This document shows positions 3,121 through 53,327 of a stretch of 64,000 nucleotides of DNA, in pieces. Each line of letters starts with the position of its first letter. Positions within the stretch are counted from its first letter, which is position 1. The DNA lies in contig NZ_CP007032.1 of the NCBI RefSeq assembly GCF_000231405.2, forward strand, positions 806,001 to 870,000, read 5' to 3'. This DNA is from Desulfitobacterium metallireducens DSM 15288. Lineage in GTDB: Bacteria; Bacillota; Desulfitobacteriia; Desulfitobacteriales; Desulfitobacteriaceae. The position numbers and the translations under genes were made by a program. The notes below the pieces were generated by a model. It worked only from the letters and a program-made list of their open reading frames with translations. It had not been told where the DNA came from and did not search any database.

Positions 3121-4362
3121 TTAGTAGTTAGGGTAGTGAATAATATTTCCCTCCCAGGTTCGCAGGGTAGCCTCTTCATCATCTAAGGAAAGTAGATACT
3201 GGGGTAGAATTGGCGTTTTTCCTTTTCCACCAGGAGCATTAATTATATAGGTAGGAATGGCTAAACCGGAAGTAAATCCTCTGAGCTTTTCCATAATATC
3301 TAGACCATTTTCAATTTTAGGAATAAAATGATGTGTGCCCTTGACATGTTTCGCATGAAAGATATAGTATGGACGAACTCGAATTTTCAAAAGCTCTTGG
3401 TTTAACCGTATCATTATATCGGGTGTATCATTAATATTTTTCAGAAGCACAGCTTGATTCCCTAAAACTACTCCGGCAGAAATAAGCTTATCCGCAGCCT
3501 TTTTGGCTTCTGCTGTAACTTCCTTAGGATGATTAAATTGGGTGTTGATATAAATCGGCGGATACTGCGCTAAAATGGAGCACAGTTCATCGGTGATCCG
3601 CATGGGAAGGGTGACGGGGACCCGGGTACCAATCCGCTTGATTTCTACATGAGGAATGGAGTGTAATTCTTCGAGAAGCCAATGGAGCGTAAGGTCGCTT
3701 AACATCAAGGCATCTCCACCTGTAATTAAGACATCACGAATTTCTGGATTGGCTCGGATATAGTCTAAAGCGGCTTGGAGTTGAGCACGGGTCTCGTGGC
3801 TATCGGTTTCACCGATATTTCTGCGTCTTTGGCAATGACGACAATACATAGCACAGAGATTGGTGACATTGATAATTAACCGATCGGGATATCGTCGTGT
3901 AATGCAAGGAGCAGGATTGGTAAAAGCTTCACCCATAGGGTCTTCTTCTCCGGTTAAATCCAGTAGTTCCTCGATCCGTGGAAGACCTTGTAAACGGATA
4001 GGATCCCATGGGTTAGAAGAGTCCATTAAGCTTAAATAATAGGGGGAAATAGCCCATCGATAGGTTCTTCCGACTTCAAGGATATCTTGTGCTGCTTGCT
4101 CAGTTAGAGGCAAGAGTTCTTGCAAGATCTGCAAATCCGTAATCCTGTTTTTCATCTGCCAGTGCCAATTTTCCCAATCCTCAAGAGTAGCCTTAAAGGT
4201 TGTAAGGATTCGATCTCGACTTTGAAGGTATTCATCCTTTAAAAGAAAACCTGTAGGAATTTTCTCTTTACGATTCATGTAAGGTATGGCCTTTAGCTTT
4301 AGCTCATTTGCACGATGTAAGGATTGCAATCTTTCATTTAATTCTTTTGATTCTACTGCCAA
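3121..4362 (-). CDS. eam: KamA-family aminomutase, probable glutamate 2,3-aminomutase
   Basis: This is a 413-residue radical SAM, PLP-dependent aminomutase. The cluster motif is CAMYCRHC and the PLP lysine is predicted at K382 in PGGKGKTP. Lysine 2,3-aminomutase binds its substrate side chain with two aspartates 37 residues apart. Here the aligned residues are K338 (in FHAKHVKG) and N375 (in YIINAPGG), also 37 apart. That is the Lys/Asn pair reported for glutamate 2,3-aminomutase. The predicted product is therefore beta-glutamate, a compatible solute. The start is TTG with AAGGGGG upstream. Transcription passes through a cyclic-di-AMP riboswitch, which fits an osmotic role. Lysine as substrate is less likely. 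Confidence 0.82.
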   Translation of the reverse strand: MAVESKELNERLQSLHRANELKLKAIPYMNRKEKIPTGFLLKDEYLQSRDRILTTFKATLEDWENWHWQMKNRITDLQILQELLPLTEQAAQDILEVGRTYRWAISPYYLSLMDSSNPWDPIRLQGLPRIEELLDLTGEEDPMGEAFTNPAPCITRRYPDRLIINVTNLCAMYCRHCQRRRNIGETDSHETRAQLQAALDYIRANPEIRDVLITGGDALMLSDLTLHWLLEELHSIPHVEIKRIGTRVPVTLPMRITDELCSILAQYPPIYINTQFNHPKEVTAEAKKAADKLISAGVVLGNQAVLLKNINDTPDIMIRLNQELLKIRVRPYYIFHAKHVKGTHHFIPKIENGLDIMEKLRGFTSGLAIPTYIINAPGGKGKTPILPQYLLSLDDEEATLRTWEGNIIHYPNY

Positions 4363-4401: not shown

Positions 4402-4575
4402 AATTAAAAGGAGCCTATAGTGGCCCCTAAGAGATCGAATGTGCTGATTAATAAAATCAGTACTTCTTGTGCGAGCTAGCTTACGAGGTTAGCTGACGGA
4501 TTCGAGCGCACGCTCTACGCATAAGATGCGATTCACCCCAAAAAGTGGTTCCCCCGTTTCCCCTTAGGAATTAGG
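4402..4575 (-). promoter_or_regulatory. Cyclic-di-AMP riboswitch (ydaO/yuaA class) with terminator
   Basis: Read leftward, the aptamer carries the class hallmarks in order: CGGGGGAACCA, GGGGTGAATC, a variable stem, then AATCCGTCAGCTAACCTCGT. It is followed by a terminator hairpin (GGGGCC / GGCTCC, at 4427-4410) with a TTTTAATTT tail. The terminator lies about 40 bases before the aminomutase start. In known members, ligand binding favours termination, so high c-di-AMP should shut off beta-glutamate synthesis. Confidence in the class is high; the exact aptamer edges are approximate. Confidence 0.95.
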
Positions 4576-4607
4576 CCTTATTTAATTTTTATTATTTGTA
4601 ATTGATT

Positions 4608-4642
4608 ACCAACAACTTTATAATAACATAAAGGTTGTTACC
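4608..4642. promoter_or_regulatory. Inverted repeat overlapping the promoter, candidate operator
   Basis: ACCAACAACTTTAT and ATAAAGGTTGTTACC form an imperfect inverted repeat (one bulged base) that covers the -10 box and spacer of the leftward promoter. Related words (ATTACC, GGTAAT) recur at 4598-4609 and about 4670. The divergent gene encodes a BusR-like repressor, which makes this its likely binding site. That is inference from position. Confidence 0.5.
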
Positions 4643-4648
4643 AGTCAA
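4620..4648 (-). promoter_or_regulatory. SigA-type promoter of the riboswitch-aminomutase transcript
   Basis: On the minus strand TTGACT (4648-4643) and TATTAT (4625-4620) are separated by exactly 17 bases. Initiation would fall near 4612, just upstream of the c-di-AMP aptamer. Confidence 0.85.
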
Positions 4649-4718
4649 TGGGATTGAAGAGTTAATAATTGGTAATGATATTTTATGAGTTAAATGTTTC
4701 AAGGAGTGAATTGTAGAA

Positions 4719-5318
4719 ATGGAACAGTCACGTTATCAAGAGATCGCCCTCGAAATTGCCCATTCTATCGTTATGAGTGAATATCAAGAAGGGGAAAGAA
4801 TACATGGACGGTCGACGTTGGCGGGTCGATTCAATGTTTCTCCAGAAACCATTCGCCGCGCTATTGCAATCTTGCAAAATGCAGGCGTTGTTATGGTGAA
4901 TCAAGGGATCGGAATTACGGTAACCTCAAAGGCTCAAGCCGAAAAGTTTTTGAGAGCGTTTGATCAGAAAACGGAAGTTCATGTGTTTCTTTCGGAATTA
5001 AATGAGTATATGGAGAAACGCAGGCAACTTGATTTAAAAATTGAGGGACATTTGAATAAAATTTTACTATATACAGATCGTATGATGTCTCGCTGGATGG
5101 ATGTAGCAGAAGTCGAAGTGGGCAAAGATTCAGTAGCGGCAGGGCAAACCCTGACCCAACTCAAAATTCGAGAACGGACAGGCCTTACCGTTGTCGCAGT
5201 TGTCCGAAAAGGGATTGAACAATTCTCTCCGAATTCTGGATTTGTAATTGAGAGCGGAGATGTACTTCTAGTTGTGGGGGCAGAGCAGGGAAGAGAAAAA
5301 CTCCAAGAAATACTTTAA
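4719..5318 (+). CDS. BusR-like regulator: GntR-type HTH plus RCK_C domain
   Basis: The 199 residues divide into a winged helix-turn-helix of GntR type (about 1-70, with GRFNVSPETIRRAIAIL as the HTH), a helical linker (75-125) and an RCK_C/TrkA-C domain (about 128-199, ending ESGDVLLVVGA). This is the architecture of BusR, the cyclic-di-AMP-responsive repressor of osmolyte uptake in lactococci and streptococci. The RCK_C segment LKIRERTGLTVVAV parallels the c-di-AMP-binding loop of KtrA (LNLRAKYGISVMAI in this window). It is transcribed away from a c-di-AMP riboswitch. Its likely targets are the shared intergenic region and perhaps other osmotic genes. The 97 bases after it show no clear signal. 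Confidence 0.85.
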   Translation: MEQSRYQEIALEIAHSIVMSEYQEGERIHGRSTLAGRFNVSPETIRRAIAILQNAGVVMVNQGIGITVTSKAQAEKFLRAFDQKTEVHVFLSELNEYMEKRRQLDLKIEGHLNKILLYTDRMMSRWMDVAEVEVGKDSVAAGQTLTQLKIRERTGLTVVAVVRKGIEQFSPNSGFVIESGDVLLVVGAEQGREKLQEIL

Positions 5319-5424
5319 TGAATACAGGAAGTCGCACCTCACTGTCGAACTCTTAACTTTATTAAAGTGTAACTAGAGCTATCGCTATCGCTAAGTTTTC
5401 TTTAGAAATTGAGGGATGCGACAG

Positions 5425-6717
5425 ATGACTTGGATTTTCTTGTTGGTTTTAGGAGCAGAGGTTGTGATGAGTATAGCCTCGCAAAATCTTCGGCTTCTTC
5501 TCGTTTTTCTGATCGGGAATATGCTTTACTTGCTTCTTTACACTGAGTATCAACGACGGCGGATTCGGAGTTTGACCACTGAACGCAATGTGGAAGTCAG
5601 CTTCAAGATTGCCCACGAAACGCTTCCTTATCTTCGAAGAGGTCTTAATGCGCAGAATGCTGAATTTATGGCTAAAATTATTCAAGAGATCGGTCAAGTC
5701 GCTGCAGTTTCAATTACAGACTGTACGAAGCAATTGGCTTATTTAGGTGTAGGCTGTGACCAACATCATCCTGGGGATAAGATCTTGACGGCAGCAACCC
5801 AGGAAGTGATTCGGACAGGAAATTATAAAATCGTCCGAACACAAAAGGAATTAAATTGTCCGCGTCAAAATGTTTGTGATTGTCCTATTGCAGCTGCAGT
5901 AGTGGTGCCTCTGCATTCTCAAGGAAAAGTTGTTGGCACGGTGAAACTCTATGAAACTAAAGATGGGCACCTGTCTCCTGATTTGATCCGGCTTGCTTTA
6001 GGAATGGCCCAACTTCTTAGTCTTCAGATCGAACTGGCTGAATTAGATCATCAGGCTAAGCTGGCGACAGAAGCTCAACTTGATGCTCTGCAGGCTCAGA
6101 TCAATCCCCATTTTTTCTTTAATGTGCTGAACACGATTATTGCAACGAGTCGAACTAACCCGAACCGTGCACGTCGTTTACTTATATATCTTTCGGAATT
6201 CTTCCGCTGGGCAATGAAATCAAAAGGAACCCTGATTCCCCTGGAGGAGGAGCTGAAATTTGTACATACTTATTTGATTCTGGAAAAAGCTCGCTTTGGT
6301 CGAAAGCTACAGGTCAAGAGCCAGATCCCGAAAGAGCTCATGAAAGCGGTTATTCCGCGTTTAAGTTTGCAACCCCTGGTGGAGAATGCTGTAAAGCATG
6401 GGATTACGCCTAAGATTGGAAAGGGTACAGTATGGATCCAAGCGGAAGTAAAAGAGAGTGAACTGTACTTTTATGTACGGGATGATGGCATGGGGATTCC
6501 TCAGGAACGACTTTCAGAGGTATTGAAACCAGGGGTAGGTTCAGGTAATGGTGTTGGTATGGCGAATGTTCATGAGCGACTTCGGGGGTTGTATGGTGAG
6601 GAATACGGGTTGCAGATAGAGAGTGTACTGGGTCAGGAAACGACGGTAATCATGCATTTGCCGTTAATGTTTATGCCCATTGATGGAGGTTTTAAAGCCG
6701 ATGTATCCGGGAGTTGA
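5425..6717 (+). CDS. LytS-like sensor histidine kinase
   Basis: This is a membrane-anchored kinase of the LytS/YehU family. Two N-terminal hydrophobic segments (about residues 1-40) are followed by a GAF-like domain containing several cysteines (CDCPIAAAVVVPL). The His-kinase motif is QINPHFFFN, with the His as phosphoacceptor. The ATPase boxes are LVENAVKHG (N box) and DDGMGIP, then GNGVGMANV. The ATG at 5425 has GAGGG 9 bases before it; an earlier in-frame ATG at 5416 touches that site and is unlikely. Family members usually pair with a LytTR response regulator, but none is adjacent. Its 3' end overlaps acpS by 17 bases. Confidence 0.85.
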   Translation: MTWIFLLVLGAEVVMSIASQNLRLLLVFLIGNMLYLLLYTEYQRRRIRSLTTERNVEVSFKIAHETLPYLRRGLNAQNAEFMAKIIQEIGQVAAVSITDCTKQLAYLGVGCDQHHPGDKILTAATQEVIRTGNYKIVRTQKELNCPRQNVCDCPIAAAVVVPLHSQGKVVGTVKLYETKDGHLSPDLIRLALGMAQLLSLQIELAELDHQAKLATEAQLDALQAQINPHFFFNVLNTIIATSRTNPNRARRLLIYLSEFFRWAMKSKGTLIPLEEELKFVHTYLILEKARFGRKLQVKSQIPKELMKAVIPRLSLQPLVENAVKHGITPKIGKGTVWIQAEVKESELYFYVRDDGMGIPQERLSEVLKPGVGSGNGVGMANVHERLRGLYGEEYGLQIESVLGQETTVIMHLPLMFMPIDGGFKADVSGS

Positions 6718-7057
6718 TATTATTAAAATAGAACGCTTTGCCAAAGCGTGTGAACGTCAGCCTAAGATACGCGAAAGATTGTTTACAGAGCGCGAGCGAG
6801 CTGATCTAAGTGACCGACCGACTTCCAGTTGGGCTGCTCGTTTTGCAGGGAAAGAAGCAATATTGAAGAGTATGGGAACTGGACTCGCAGGGCTTTCTTG
6901 GCATGATGTGGAGATATTAACAGAGATAAGCGGCGAACCTCATGTGTATTTAAGTTCTAAGGCTGAAGGCGTTGTACAGAAACGTGGGGGCTCAATGGTT
7001 CGTTTAAGCTTATCGCATGAACAGGAATATGCCATCGCTATGGCTGTTTTGTGCTAA
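6701..7057 (+). CDS. acpS: Holo-[acyl-carrier-protein] synthase
   Basis: This enzyme transfers 4'-phosphopantetheine from CoA to the serine of acyl carrier protein. The metal-binding Asp lies in GVDIIKIERF and the Glu in FAGKEAILKSMGTG, both family hallmarks. With the ATG at 6701 (GGAGG 11 bases upstream) it is 118 residues, as usual for AcpS. Upstream in-frame starts would add residues not seen in the family. It overlaps the end of the kinase gene and is followed closely by nnr and alr, an order common in Firmicutes. Confidence 0.93.
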   Translation: MYPGVDIIKIERFAKACERQPKIRERLFTERERADLSDRPTSSWAARFAGKEAILKSMGTGLAGLSWHDVEILTEISGEPHVYLSSKAEGVVQKRGGSMVRLSLSHEQEYAIAMAVLC

Positions 7058-7081
7058 TTGTCTAAGAGGGAGGCGGAAGAA

Positions 7082-8653
7082 GTGAGAGTCGTCAGTGCTC
7101 AGCAAATGCGAGAAATCGAGAAACAAGCGATTGGAGTTTATGGAATTCCCAGTTTGCTGTTGATGGAAAATGCAGCTCTAGCCGTCGTCCAGGAAATTCG
7201 ACAAACCGCTACTCAAATGATTTTTAAGGAAAGTTGTAAGACGATCATTCTCGTGGGAAAAGGAAATAATGGAGGAGATGGTTTAGCGATTGCTCGACAT
7301 CTCTTGATTTCAGGAATGGATGTTACCGTTTTCTCTTTTGCCAAAACGGAAGAATTCCATGGCGATGCAGCTCTGAATTGTCACTTATATCAAAATGCAG
7401 GCGGCCGATTTTTCCTGATCGAGGGTGAAAAACAACTCCGATTCACGCGTTTAGCGTTACATCAAGCGGATATTATTGTGGATGCTATTTATGGAACAGG
7501 ATTACGTGGGGCTCTTCCAAGCCTAGTGGAAGAGTTCGTGGAAGAGGTTAATCAAACTCAGGCCTATGTTATAGCGGTCGATATTCCAAGCGGGGTTGAA
7601 GCAGATACCGGAAAGATCTACAGGAGTGCTATCCGCGCGCAGACAACAGTGACCTTTGGACTTCCAAAGCTGGGGCATTTTATGGCTAAAGGACCGGAGT
7701 ATGCAGGCCGTGTGATCGTTGACCCGATCTCCATTCCAGATCAATTTCTCACCCAGGAGGAAGTTTCCACCTTTGTTTTGACGGATGATGAGGTGAAAAC
7801 GTTTTTGCCGGTAAGGACACTTCAAGGACATAAAGGCACGCATGGCAAAGGCGTATTGGTTGCCGGATCCACAGGTATGACAGGAGCGGCAATTTTAGCC
7901 GGTAGATCTGCTTTGCGAAGTGGAATAGGGCTGTTACAGATCGTTACCCCACGAAGCATCGCTTCTCAGATGGACTTAGGAATCACTGAAGCAACGATCT
8001 GGTCAGTAGAGGGAGAAAATACGCTAGGTAATCAAGCGTGGCCGGTGATTTCAGAAAAATGCCGAACTGCTCAGGCCTTGGCGATTGGACCCGGGCTTGG
8101 CCAGAACACGGATTTCATTCCGGTTCTCGAGGAAGTCTTGCGCACGATTGAATTCCCCGTTTTATTGGACGCGGATGCTTTGAATTTGGTCGCTCAAGGA
8201 CCCGAGATTTTGGGGTGGCGACAAGGTAGAGGATCGTTAATAATGACGCCTCATCCAGGGGAAATGGCAAGACTATGTGACTGCTCAGTTCAGGAAATTG
8301 AAAATAATCGCTTAGAAATTGCAGTTACCAAAGCGGTTGAATGGGGAGTTGTTCTTGTCTTAAAAGGGGCAGTCACTGTGATTGCAAGTCCTGATGGACG
8401 AGCCTTCCTTAATCCAACAGGAAATCCAGGGTTAGGAACGGGAGGAACAGGGGATGTTTTAACCGGCAGTATTCTGGCCTGGTTAGCCCAAGGGGTACCT
8501 CCTTTAGAAGCAGCCTGTTTAGGTGTGTATCTGCATGGAAAGGCAGCTGACGAATTAGCCCGAGATTTTGGTTGGTCAGGGTTTACAGCGACAGAGGTTG
8601 CTGACCAGTTGGTTAAAGCACGGCGGTCTCTAGAGTTGATTGAAAAAGGATAG
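7082..8653 (+). CDS. nnr: Bifunctional NAD(P)H-hydrate epimerase / ADP-dependent dehydratase
   Basis: This metabolite-repair enzyme restores NAD(P)H from its hydrated forms. The N-terminal YjeF_N epimerase domain (about 1-215) has GKGNNGGDGLAIARHL and DAIYGTGLRG. The C-terminal YjeF_C kinase-like dehydratase (about 230-520) has HKGTHGKGVLVAGS, TPHPGEMARL and the GNPGLGTGGTGDVLTG anion hole. The GTG start at 7082 follows GAGGGAGG by 9 bases and gives 523 residues, normal for the fusion. It sits between acpS and alr in one operon. Confidence 0.93.
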   Translation: MRVVSAQQMREIEKQAIGVYGIPSLLLMENAALAVVQEIRQTATQMIFKESCKTIILVGKGNNGGDGLAIARHLLISGMDVTVFSFAKTEEFHGDAALNCHLYQNAGGRFFLIEGEKQLRFTRLALHQADIIVDAIYGTGLRGALPSLVEEFVEEVNQTQAYVIAVDIPSGVEADTGKIYRSAIRAQTTVTFGLPKLGHFMAKGPEYAGRVIVDPISIPDQFLTQEEVSTFVLTDDEVKTFLPVRTLQGHKGTHGKGVLVAGSTGMTGAAILAGRSALRSGIGLLQIVTPRSIASQMDLGITEATIWSVEGENTLGNQAWPVISEKCRTAQALAIGPGLGQNTDFIPVLEEVLRTIEFPVLLDADALNLVAQGPEILGWRQGRGSLIMTPHPGEMARLCDCSVQEIENNRLEIAVTKAVEWGVVLVLKGAVTVIASPDGRAFLNPTGNPGLGTGGTGDVLTGSILAWLAQGVPPLEAACLGVYLHGKAADELARDFGWSGFTATEVADQLVKARRSLELIEKG

Positions 8654-9816: not shown

Positions 9817-11205
9817 GTGGAAAACAAAAAGCATATTGGGTCGATAGACGGCCTTGTTCAAGCCATGGACCGTTTCTTTAAGAACCTTACTCCTCCTCGC
9901 GTTCTTGTTATAGGATTTGCTATCGTTATTCTTCTGGGAGCATTAATTTTGACCTTGCCTGTTGCAACAGTAGATGGGCAGGGTTTAAAGTTTTTAAATG
10001 CTCTCTTCACTGCTACCTCGGCTGTTTGTGTGACGGGGCTTATCGTTGTCGATACGGGGACAACCTTTACCTTATTTGGACAACTCGTGATTCTTTCCCT
10101 TATTCAAATTGGTGGCTTGGGCTTCATGACGTTTGCAACCTTCTTTGCTATAATCTTGGGACGTAAAGTGACTCTCAAGGAACGACTCCTTCTTCAGGAA
10201 GCCCTTAATCAGGTTTCGTTAGAAGGCGTTGTTCGGTTAGCAAAGTATGTACTTCAAGTGACGTTCGCCATTGAAGCTGCAGGAGCACTTATTTTAGCTG
10301 TTCGCTGGTCTTTCGACATGAGTTGGACGAAAGCGATTTATTATGGAATCTTCCATGCTGTATCCTCATTTAATAATGCTGGATTTGACTTGTTTGGTGA
10401 GTATTCCAGCATTACTCGCTATGTTGGGGATCCTATTGTGAATATAACGATAATGTTGCTCATTATCTTTGGAGGTTTAGGTTTTACCGTATTATCGGAC
10501 TTATACATGCATAAAGGGAAAAAGATGATGCTTCATACGAAAATGGTGTTGAGTATGACCGGAATTCTAATTTTTGCGGGTGCAATTCTTATTTTTCTTA
10601 TCGAATTTAGCAATCCCAAAACGCTAGGTTCGCTCGATCCAATGGCAAAAATTTTATCTTCCTTGTTCCAGTCAGTAACGGCACGAACTGCAGGGTATAA
10701 TACTTTGGACATGACCGGGTTGAGAAGCACGACCCTTCTGATCATGATTATCCTCATGTTTATTGGAGCTTCTCCTGGATCAACGGGTGGTGGTATTAAG
10801 ACAACCACCTTTGCCTCTGTGAGTTTGTATGTGTTCAGTTTGTTTCGGGGAGAATCTTTTGTAACGTTTAAAGAACGAAGTATTGCAACAGATGTTATTC
10901 AAAAAGCAGTGGCCGTTGTTATTATGGCTTTGGTATTAGTTTTGGTCGTGACTGGAGTTTTAACGCTTACGGAAAAAGCAGATTTTCTAACTTTACTTTT
11001 TGAGACGACTTCAGCCTTTGCTACTGTGGGGCTAACGGTGGGGCTTACGCCTACGTTAACGAATATGGGTAAGTTAATGATTATCTTTACAATGTTTGCT
11101 GGGCGGGTTGGACCTTTAACCCTTGTTTTTGCTCTATCCCATAAGCGCAATGGACCACAACAAAAGCATATCAAATATCCAGAAGAAAAAATTATGATTG
11201 GGTAG
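9817..11205 (+). CDS. ktrB: KtrB-type potassium transporter, membrane subunit
   Basis: This is the potassium-conducting subunit of a Ktr/Trk system, about 462 residues with the four membrane-pore-membrane repeats of the family. Selectivity-filter-type segments are visible as TSAVCVTGLI, FNNAGFD, TARTAGYNT and FATVGLT. A glycine-rich stretch, GASPGSTGGGIKTTTF, lies in the third repeat region. The length and partner gene fit KtrB rather than TrkH. The start is GTG with only a weak ribosome site (GGGG about 12 bases upstream). The KtrA gate subunit follows after 20 bases. Confidence 0.92.
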   Translation: MENKKHIGSIDGLVQAMDRFFKNLTPPRVLVIGFAIVILLGALILTLPVATVDGQGLKFLNALFTATSAVCVTGLIVVDTGTTFTLFGQLVILSLIQIGGLGFMTFATFFAIILGRKVTLKERLLLQEALNQVSLEGVVRLAKYVLQVTFAIEAAGALILAVRWSFDMSWTKAIYYGIFHAVSSFNNAGFDLFGEYSSITRYVGDPIVNITIMLLIIFGGLGFTVLSDLYMHKGKKMMLHTKMVLSMTGILIFAGAILIFLIEFSNPKTLGSLDPMAKILSSLFQSVTARTAGYNTLDMTGLRSTTLLIMIILMFIGASPGSTGGGIKTTTFASVSLYVFSLFRGESFVTFKERSIATDVIQKAVAVVIMALVLVLVVTGVLTLTEKADFLTLLFETTSAFATVGLTVGLTPTLTNMGKLMIIFTMFAGRVGPLTLVFALSHKRNGPQQKHIKYPEEKIMIG

Positions 11206-11225
11206 AAACAGGAGGGAGACCTGAG

Positions 11226-11873
11226 ATGCATAAACAATTTGTCGTTATTGGTTTAGGACGCTTTGGAACGAGCGTGGCACGAACATTGAGTTCTCTAGGT
11301 CATGACGTTTTAGCAATTGATATGAAGGAAAATGCTGTTCAGGCCATTATGAACGAAGTAACCCACGCCGTTCAAGCCGATGCTCGCGAGGAAGAGAATT
11401 TAAGAGCTTTGGGTGTTCGTAATTTTGATGTGGCTGTTGTCGCGATCGGAGATGATCTCCAGGCTAATATTTTAATTACGTTAATGTTGAAAGAAATGGG
11501 AATAGAGTATGTGGTTGCCAAAGCTCAAACCAATTTGCATGGCAGGGTTCTAGAGAAAGTCGGAGCGGATAAAATCATTTATCCGGAAAAGGATATGGGA
11601 GTCCGGGTCGCCCATAATCTTGTTACAGCGAACATTATGGATTTTATTGAACTTTCCCCCGACTACAGTATTGTGGAAATCCTTACCCCTTATAAGTTCA
11701 TTGGTAAATCACTGGGAGAATTAAATTTACGTGCGAAGTATGGAATTAGCGTAATGGCGATTAAAAACGGGAAAAAGGTTGAGGTTGCCCCAGGTGCGGA
11801 TGCAAGGATTCAAGAAAGGGATATTCTTGTGGTTGTGAGTAGCAATAAAGCCATTGAAAAGCTTCCGGAATAG
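11226..11873 (+). CDS. ktrA: KtrA/TrkA-type potassium channel gating subunit
   Basis: This is the cytoplasmic ring protein that gates KtrB. The N-terminal RCK_N Rossmann domain has GLGRFGTSVA for nucleotide binding. The C-terminal RCK_C domain (about 140-215) includes LNLRAKYGISVMAIKNG, which matches the loop that binds cyclic-di-AMP in KtrA of other Firmicutes. It is 215 residues, typical of the family. A GGAGGGAGA ribosome site precedes the ATG. Regulation by c-di-AMP is established for the family and inferred here. Confidence 0.93.
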   Translation: MHKQFVVIGLGRFGTSVARTLSSLGHDVLAIDMKENAVQAIMNEVTHAVQADAREEENLRALGVRNFDVAVVAIGDDLQANILITLMLKEMGIEYVVAKAQTNLHGRVLEKVGADKIIYPEKDMGVRVAHNLVTANIMDFIELSPDYSIVEILTPYKFIGKSLGELNLRAKYGISVMAIKNGKKVEVAPGADARIQERDILVVVSSNKAIEKLPE

Positions 11874-52028: not shown

Positions 52029-52139
52029 AGAGGAATTTGTAGGTTAAACGCGAATTAAGTATTATTAAAATAATATTTTATAAAGATCAAAAACTATGTA
52101 TAATAGAAATAGACATCTAAACAAATGATTAAGTTAAGT

Positions 52140-52316
52140 GAATATCTTGCTCCGAAACTAGATAACCTAAGGCCTTTTTTAAGGTGACGGTGACTAGGCT
52201 AGTGTTTATACACTCGGGTATTGTCGGAAACGATAATATCTCCTATTGGAAAGGAGTCTGTTAAGGCAAAGCGGGAATACTCCGCGGTTAAAACAGACCG
52301 CGGAGTATTTTTATTT
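52140..52316 (+). promoter_or_regulatory. Probable Moco riboswitch with intrinsic terminator before moaA
   Basis: A structured leader carries segments like those of the molybdenum-cofactor RNA: CTCCGAAAC near its start, AAGGTGACGG, CGGAAAC, and the hairpin CTCC-TATTGGAAA-GGAG, then AAGGC. It ends in a perfect terminator (AATACTCCGCGGT / ACCGCGGAGTATT, 52276-52309, with a T-rich tail). TATAAT at 52099-52104 is a likely -10 box. Its placement before moaA fits. I cannot separate it from the tungsten-cofactor variant, and its edges are approximate. Confidence 0.72.
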
Positions 52317-52355
52317 TATCGATTTTTAAACGCCTTGATGGAAAGAGGGATTAAA

Positions 52356-53327
52356 ATGCAAGACCAATTTCAACGGCGAATTGAATATCTACGTATCTCC
52401 ATCACAGATCGCTGTAATCTACGGTGTCAGTACTGCATGCCTGCTACGGGTGTTCAATGGATACCTCATGAAGATATTCTAAGTTTTGAGGAAATTTATC
52501 GCTTGGTTAAATTGAGTACGCATCTCGGTTTTAAACGTTTTCGCCTTACAGGTGGGGAACCCCTTGTGCGAAAAGGACTAGTTGATTTCATCAGTCAAGT
52601 TTCTCAAGTTCCTGGGGTCGAGGATTTAATGCTAACGACGAATGGAATACTCTTGCCGGAAATGGCCTTTGATTTGAAAGCGGCAGGCTTGAATCGTGTC
52701 AATATTAGTTTAGATACCTTTGATCCAGACCGTTTTAGGGAAATAACGCGTGGCGGAGATGTGAACAAAGTATTTCAGGGGATTGCTCGTTCCTTAGAGG
52801 TTGATTTAAAACCAGTAAAATTAAATGTTGTGGTTGTTCGCGATTTTAACCTGCATGAATTACCGAAGTTTCTTGAACTCGCTCAGAAATATCCCATCCA
52901 TGTTCGCTTTATCGAGCTTATGCCGATTGGGGTCAGTTCTGATCAACGCAACGAATTCGTCCCGATTGCTGAAATGAAGGAAATTCTGGGGTTACAAGGA
53001 TTGGAACCTGAGAAGAAAGAGTTTGGTGGTGGACCGGCTGAGTATGTATCACCAGAGGGCTTTCAGGGAAACGTTGGATTTATTAGTGCGTTAAGCCGGC
53101 ATTTTTGTAGCACCTGTAACCGTATGCGCTTGACGGCTGACGGAAAATTACGGCCCTGCTTGCATAGTCCGAAAGAAGTTGATTTACGTCAAGCCTTGCG
53201 AAATGGAAGTACTGATGAAGAACTTTTACAGATATTAGAACAAGCCATCTGGAATAAACCAGCGGAACACCATATGAATGAGGAAGCATGGCAAGGGAAT
53301 CGCGTGATGTCACAGATCGGAGGATAA
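52356..53327 (+). CDS. moaA: GTP 3',8-cyclase
   Basis: This radical SAM enzyme starts Moco synthesis from GTP. The N-terminal cluster motif is CNLRCQYC, and the C-terminal cluster CSTCNRMRL with a third Cys in LRPCLHS. The usual GG end is present (SQIGG). The ATG at 52356 follows AAAGAGGG, giving 323 residues. Longer in-frame starts would run into the riboswitch terminator and are rejected. moaC follows two bases later. Confidence 0.95.

Follow-up and report, generated by a model that had tools for sequence, protein, structure and literature searches.

Can one second messenger hold a single gene off twice, through a protein at initiation and an RNA at termination? The question is raised by an intergenic region of Desulfitobacterium metallireducens DSM 15288, which we analyzed within a window of 64,000 nucleotides (the whole stretch of DNA studied; NZ_CP007032.1, positions 806,001 to 870,000). 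An earlier note, made from the letters of this stretch alone, had proposed that a c-di-AMP riboswitch and a divergently encoded BusR-like repressor both silence an aminomutase gene from this region. In S. agalactiae and L. lactis, BusR, a GntR-RCK_C repressor activated by c-di-AMP, controls the glycine-betaine importer busA. Here, we present evidence that a single osmotic signal probably keeps the gene, eam, switched off at two steps.

The aminomutase gene (3121..4362, minus strand, TTG start) is specifically one for glutamate 2,3-aminomutase: its product scored 698 bits against the equivalog model TIGR04368 (curated cut-off, 650), but 455 against the model of lysine 2,3-aminomutase (AblA), which is under the cut-off of 525. 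The enzyme makes beta-glutamate, a compatible solute that protects against salt. In front of eam, as had been proposed, lies a predicted c-di-AMP riboswitch aptamer of the ydaO/yuaA type (4462..4587, minus strand), supported by a match to RF00379 over the full model length (85.4 bits; gathering score, 38 bits). Sequence and folding also support an intrinsic terminator 3' of the aptamer (4409..4428, minus strand), with a 7-pair stem, a 6-nt loop, and a T-rich tail, which would provide the expression platform; the stem recurs in the minimum-energy fold (z = −3.2 for the region). A consensus scan supports a candidate promoter of the riboswitch–eam transcript at 4620..4648 (minus strand), with a −35 box TTGACT (4648-4643), a 17-bp spacer, and a −10 box TATTAT (4625-4620). 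This promoter appears to be of the sigma-70 type, with transcription expected to start at about 4613. In addition, a second riboswitch class was present in the window: a molybdenum cofactor riboswitch (RF01055, 47.6 bits, 52138-52272, plus strand) precedes a moaA-like radical SAM gene, whose called open reading frame (52221-53327) begins within the aptamer, so that its true start is probably further down.

Divergent from eam, and proposed as its repressor, is a GntR-RCK_C regulator of 199 residues (4719..5318, plus strand; Pfam GntR and TrkA_C). The BusR architecture ascribed to it was borne out, in that an N-terminal GntR winged helix is combined with a C-terminal RCK_C domain and the protein matched BusR over its full length by phmmer. 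Only two PDB chains were full-length relatives, namely 7b5t (S. agalactiae BusR, E = 4e-25) and 7wjg, deposited as a GntR-family regulator. The AlphaFold model, made from a two-row alignment, was confident for the winged helix only, and the helix at 71-123 had low confidence. Downstream in the window is a gene for a LytS-like histidine kinase (5416-6717, plus strand), which stands between the regulator and acpS genes in some genera and is missing there in others (e.g., L012-L037 except L035). A few kb downstream of the regulator, a K+ transporter gene (TrkH/KtrB-like) and a KtrA/TrkA-like gene (9817-11873, plus strand) are possibly a further point of c-di-AMP control.

For the protein's contact with DNA, we compared the operator-binding residues shown by BusR mutation (K36, R38, R53, K54, G70, and G72). 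Y13, R38, R53, G70, and G72 of BusR were invariant across the 56 clade members, K54 was replaced by Arg, and K36 corresponded to His in the regulator, as it does in 16 of 21 lactobacillal BusR proteins. At the level of sequence, which supports both the family assignment and this comparison, the DNA-contact residues of BusR are kept in kind in all 56 members. The ruler segment, from the recognition helix to the RCK_C motif, measured 110 residues in every one of the 56 and 111 in lactobacillal BusR, and this near-equal length would fit a ruler for an almost equal operator. In the phylogenetic tree, the eam-linked regulators formed a single clade (100/99) within a larger R-type group, which was split (100/99) from the W-type group that includes BusR. 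We file the regulator as a member of an R-type sister clade of BusR that presumably works like BusR, not as BusR proper, because the residues of the BusR ligand pocket and autoinhibition patch are replaced.

The earlier note had also reported an inverted repeat at 4608-4642 over the −10 box and spacer of the riboswitch promoter. The repeat is real: its bounds correctly bracket the dyad AACAAC-N17-GTTGTT (4611..4639, on neither strand in particular), centered at 4625 with half-sites at 4611-4616 and 4634-4639, in which a second dyad (CTTTAT/ATAAAG) is nested at a half-base offset. Within the eam promoter, the CAAC-N17-GTTG core reaches from the spacer through the −10 box to the predicted start of transcription, which falls in the left half-site. 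Read as RAC-N23-GTY, the dyad has the form of a BusR-type bipartite operator, one base longer than the published GAC-N22-GTC (PMC8517857); one BusR footprint in S. agalactiae overlaps the −35, −10, and +1 positions (PMC5919688). Across the whole genome, the strict dyad pattern matched two sites only, at the eam locus and inside dnaK. A wider regulon sought with this pattern yielded no site besides the dnaK match, which was taken as chance.

Both spacings occur at BusR-family loci. When the S. agalactiae genome was searched for BusR operators with GACA-N20-TGTC, the hits numbered 21, compared with 11 in the control, and the single site inspected in detail fell within a coding region; the pattern being too loose, we used BusR loci from the order of S. 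agalactiae (lactobacillal), with the operator beside busR, as the control set. Most of these loci carried GTGACC...GGTCAC-type sites containing GAC-N22-GTC, 96-197 bp downstream of busR, and one (L115) carried GACAAC-N17-GTTGTC, that is, GAC-N23-GTC, the same N23 form as in the window. RACAAC-N16/17-GTTGTY, a form into which the window operator fits, was found at several loci of Clostridial homologues of the regulator (L055, L057, L067, and L078). Distant Clostridial homologues adjoin opu-type glycine-betaine transporter genes (L056, L057, L063, L066, L067, L068, and L077), a Na+/H+ antiporter gene (L060), an aminomutase gene (L064), or genes without an obvious osmotic function (L055, L058, and L059). 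The aminomutase of L064 scored best as lysine 2,3-aminomutase, just below the cut-off (ablA-like). There, the BusR-type gene is followed by the lysine-2,3-aminomutase-like gene (5362-6495 of that locus) and then a D-Ala-D-Ala-ligase-like (ATP-grasp) gene (6514-7551), and L064 is possibly another osmolyte locus under the same kind of regulator.

Homologous loci were collected from a search of 150 related genomes, and their comparison was strongly positive for conservation of both the repeat and the gene pair. The divergent eam/regulator pair was kept in most regulator-bearing genomes of two families of the order. CAAC-N17-GTTG occurred in 50 of the 56 regulator upstream regions, far above chance (6-8 for the best dyad of equal length in ten shuffles), and was exact in 45 of the 47 pairs with both genes (degenerate but in the same phase in L045 and L048), counts that lack independence because the locus sequences are related; by genus, the exact dyad was present in 12 of the 13 genera having the pair. 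The distance from the dyad varied from 83 to 350 bp to the regulator start and from 37 to 364 bp to the eam start, and its register to the promoter hardly shifted. In fact, the flanking block GTCAA (plus strand), which is the TTGAC of the eam −35 box on the minus strand, lay at a fixed offset in 40 of the 45 exact sites. This pattern supports a coupling in which the putative operator belongs to the eam promoter and the two are locked together.

Such coupling bears on two other readings of the dyad. It could serve the regulator's own promoter, so that autoregulation is its role and any effect on eam incidental; in the window, a candidate plus-strand promoter (4596..4624, TTGTAA-17-TATAAT), found by consensus scan only, overlaps the operator, and five regulator genes with no adjacent eam retain the dyad. 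However, this promoter is doubtful because its −35 region is not kept in relatives, the register of the dyad is fixed to the eam −35 and −10 boxes and not to the regulator gene, and the dyad is missing at four other eam-less loci. In addition, DNA remnants of eam were detected at three of the five dyad-bearing loci (L011, L018, and L029), so we regard autoregulation of this kind as very improbable. In these three, short eam remnants with promoter and operator still stand beside the regulator gene, apparently a recent loss of beta-glutamate synthesis. That the repeat is conserved promoter sequence and no protein site at all is suggested by the conservation of the −35 and −10 boxes themselves, but the invariant CAAC/GTTG bases occupy the spacer and the surroundings of the start site, for which a promoter has no sequence requirement, and they match the BusR-family operator form at unrelated genes. 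Moreover, L072, which has eam and no full-length regulator match, lost the dyad and kept a TTGACA promoter, on which ground we reject a mere promoter sequence as a reading of negligible probability. Two further loci complete the picture: L071, from a third family, has eam and the riboswitch, with neither a full-length regulator match nor the dyad, and L073, in a 76% complete genome (G015), has eam, riboswitch, and operator with the regulator not found, an exception to the pattern.

Repression of eam by the regulator through the dyad at 4611-4639 is thus very probable, because the conservation of the operator, its BusR form, the DNA-contact residues, and the ruler length all point to it. Of the binding proposed by the earlier note, the part concerning the site stands, since the repeat fits a BusR-family operator and is conserved with the gene pair; that both locks answer to the same ligand we infer.

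The ligand question turns on the RCK_C domain. BusR relies on N157, W159, H160, P181, and F182 for its c-di-AMP pocket and its autoinhibition patch (PMC8517857). The equivalents are replaced throughout the clade, with that of P181 kept in 4 of the 56 members, and the ligand or the activation mechanism may therefore differ. In KtrA, the c-di-AMP contacts include Arg169 (PMC7288161), the equivalent of which is invariant in all 56. The clade RCK_C domain also shares Thr at 175 with BusR and is hydrophobic at 163, 168, and 176; position 170 is Glu, and position 191 is Ala in most members. Binding of c-di-AMP by the regulator appears plausible because of the KtrA-like invariant Arg, the shared Thr, and the hydrophobic positions, despite Glu 170 and the frequent Ala 191, and we consider c-di-AMP the probable ligand. 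A diadenylate cyclase was found in this genome and in 65 of the 74 genomes searched, which shows only that the ligand exists there.

The competing view is two-input control, in which the R-type RCK_C domain makes the repressor answer ionic strength, K+, or some other ligand, and only the RNA reads c-di-AMP. The loss of the BusR pocket and autoinhibition patch in the clade and the separation of R-type and W-type RCK_C domains on the tree favor it, as does the reported response of L. lactis BusR–DNA binding to ionic strength (cited in PMC10243994). On the other hand, KtrA, for which c-di-AMP binding is proven, likewise carries Arg where BusR has Trp, this Arg is invariant in the clade, and the shared Thr and hydrophobic positions are kept as well. 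In addition, R-type homologues adjoin glycine-betaine transporter (L056 and L066) and ablA-like (L064) genes, as expected of osmotic c-di-AMP control. We hold two-input control to be the less likely reading.

The two locks are unevenly distributed. The riboswitch was present in 18 of the 47 pairs and in one more at a contig end (L074), 19 of 48 in total. Every one of these loci comes from the same family as the window; in the second family, pair and operator occur but the riboswitch does not. The double lock on eam put forward in the earlier note is thus present in the window with both of its elements, but the arrangement is not universal: it is limited to part of the group, and the lock formed by operator and protein is the constant element. 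One locus (L032) has a riboswitch-like sequence under the Rfam threshold at the eam leader, with the operator intact; it is apparently a decayed c-di-AMP aptamer. Either lock may have been acquired first, as L071 has the riboswitch without the regulator. On balance, we lean toward c-di-AMP being read twice on one transcript by unlike sensors, of which the protein lock would be the older or the more stable one and the RNA lock would occur in certain lineages only.

We propose the following mechanism, which as a whole we think fairly likely. The regulator would act as a BusR-type repressor, a tetramer with a coiled-coil ruler of fixed length that binds the bipartite operator at 4611-4639 and thereby blocks RNA polymerase at the eam promoter. 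Any transcript getting past this first lock would meet the riboswitch, whose ligand-bound form would favor the terminator at 4428-4409. Both locks would shut beta-glutamate synthesis while osmotic pressure is not limiting, and a drop in c-di-AMP under hyperosmotic stress would open both. Binding itself, the tetramer, the direction of control (repression by the protein, an OFF switch in the RNA), and c-di-AMP rather than, or besides, ionic strength as the ligand are what we infer in this scheme.

Earlier work has described the control of solute uptake by BusR-type proteins, aminomutase genes under c-di-AMP riboswitches, and c-di-AMP riboswitch doublets. In keeping with the novelty presumed for the combination, our literature search, which covered openly accessible journal papers, found no report that joins a BusR-type repressor to a c-di-AMP riboswitch on the same transcript, and none of a BusR-type regulator of eam. 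The gene eam is mentioned in PMC9337991 only as an occasional Na+ riboswitch target. Through the present locus, BusR-type control would reach beyond the import of solutes, as in lactic acid bacteria, to their synthesis, and would do so throughout an anaerobic Clostridial order. The approximately 48 loci form a natural set, some with the RNA sensor and some lacking it while the protein operator stays, so that the reason why cells stack two sensors on one gene becomes directly testable. Should the R-type RCK_C domain bind c-di-AMP, it would offer a second sequence signature for recognizing such regulators; if it does not, the eam locus is a two-input gate.

Among known systems, ablA of Dehalobacter carries tandem Na+-I and c-di-AMP riboswitches (PMC9337991) and resembles the window in the OFF control of an osmolyte aminomutase gene by a c-di-AMP riboswitch and in having two sensors per transcript, but its sensors are both RNA with different ligands, whereas the window has a protein at initiation. 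Doublet c-di-AMP riboswitches (77 cases; PMC9481103) likewise read the same second messenger twice per transcript, but both readers are RNAs, where an RNA and a protein are proposed here. BusR has been studied in lactic acid bacteria, which appear to be without c-di-AMP riboswitches (PMC10243994), unlike the window locus with its riboswitch downstream. The regulator shares with BusR the GntR winged helix, long helix, and RCK_C domain, the DNA-contact residues, a ruler within one residue, a bipartite three-turn operator across the promoter, and an osmolyte target. It differs from BusR in presumably acting on solute synthesis (eam) rather than import, in an operator spacing of N23 rather than N22, and in an R-type RCK_C domain (Arg-Glu) without W159, P181, and F182. 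A further parallel is the E. coli trp operon, where a repressor and attenuation make initiation and termination answer the same metabolic state, as proposed here; there, however, the signal is an amino acid, not a second messenger, and attenuation works through charged tRNA, not a riboswitch.
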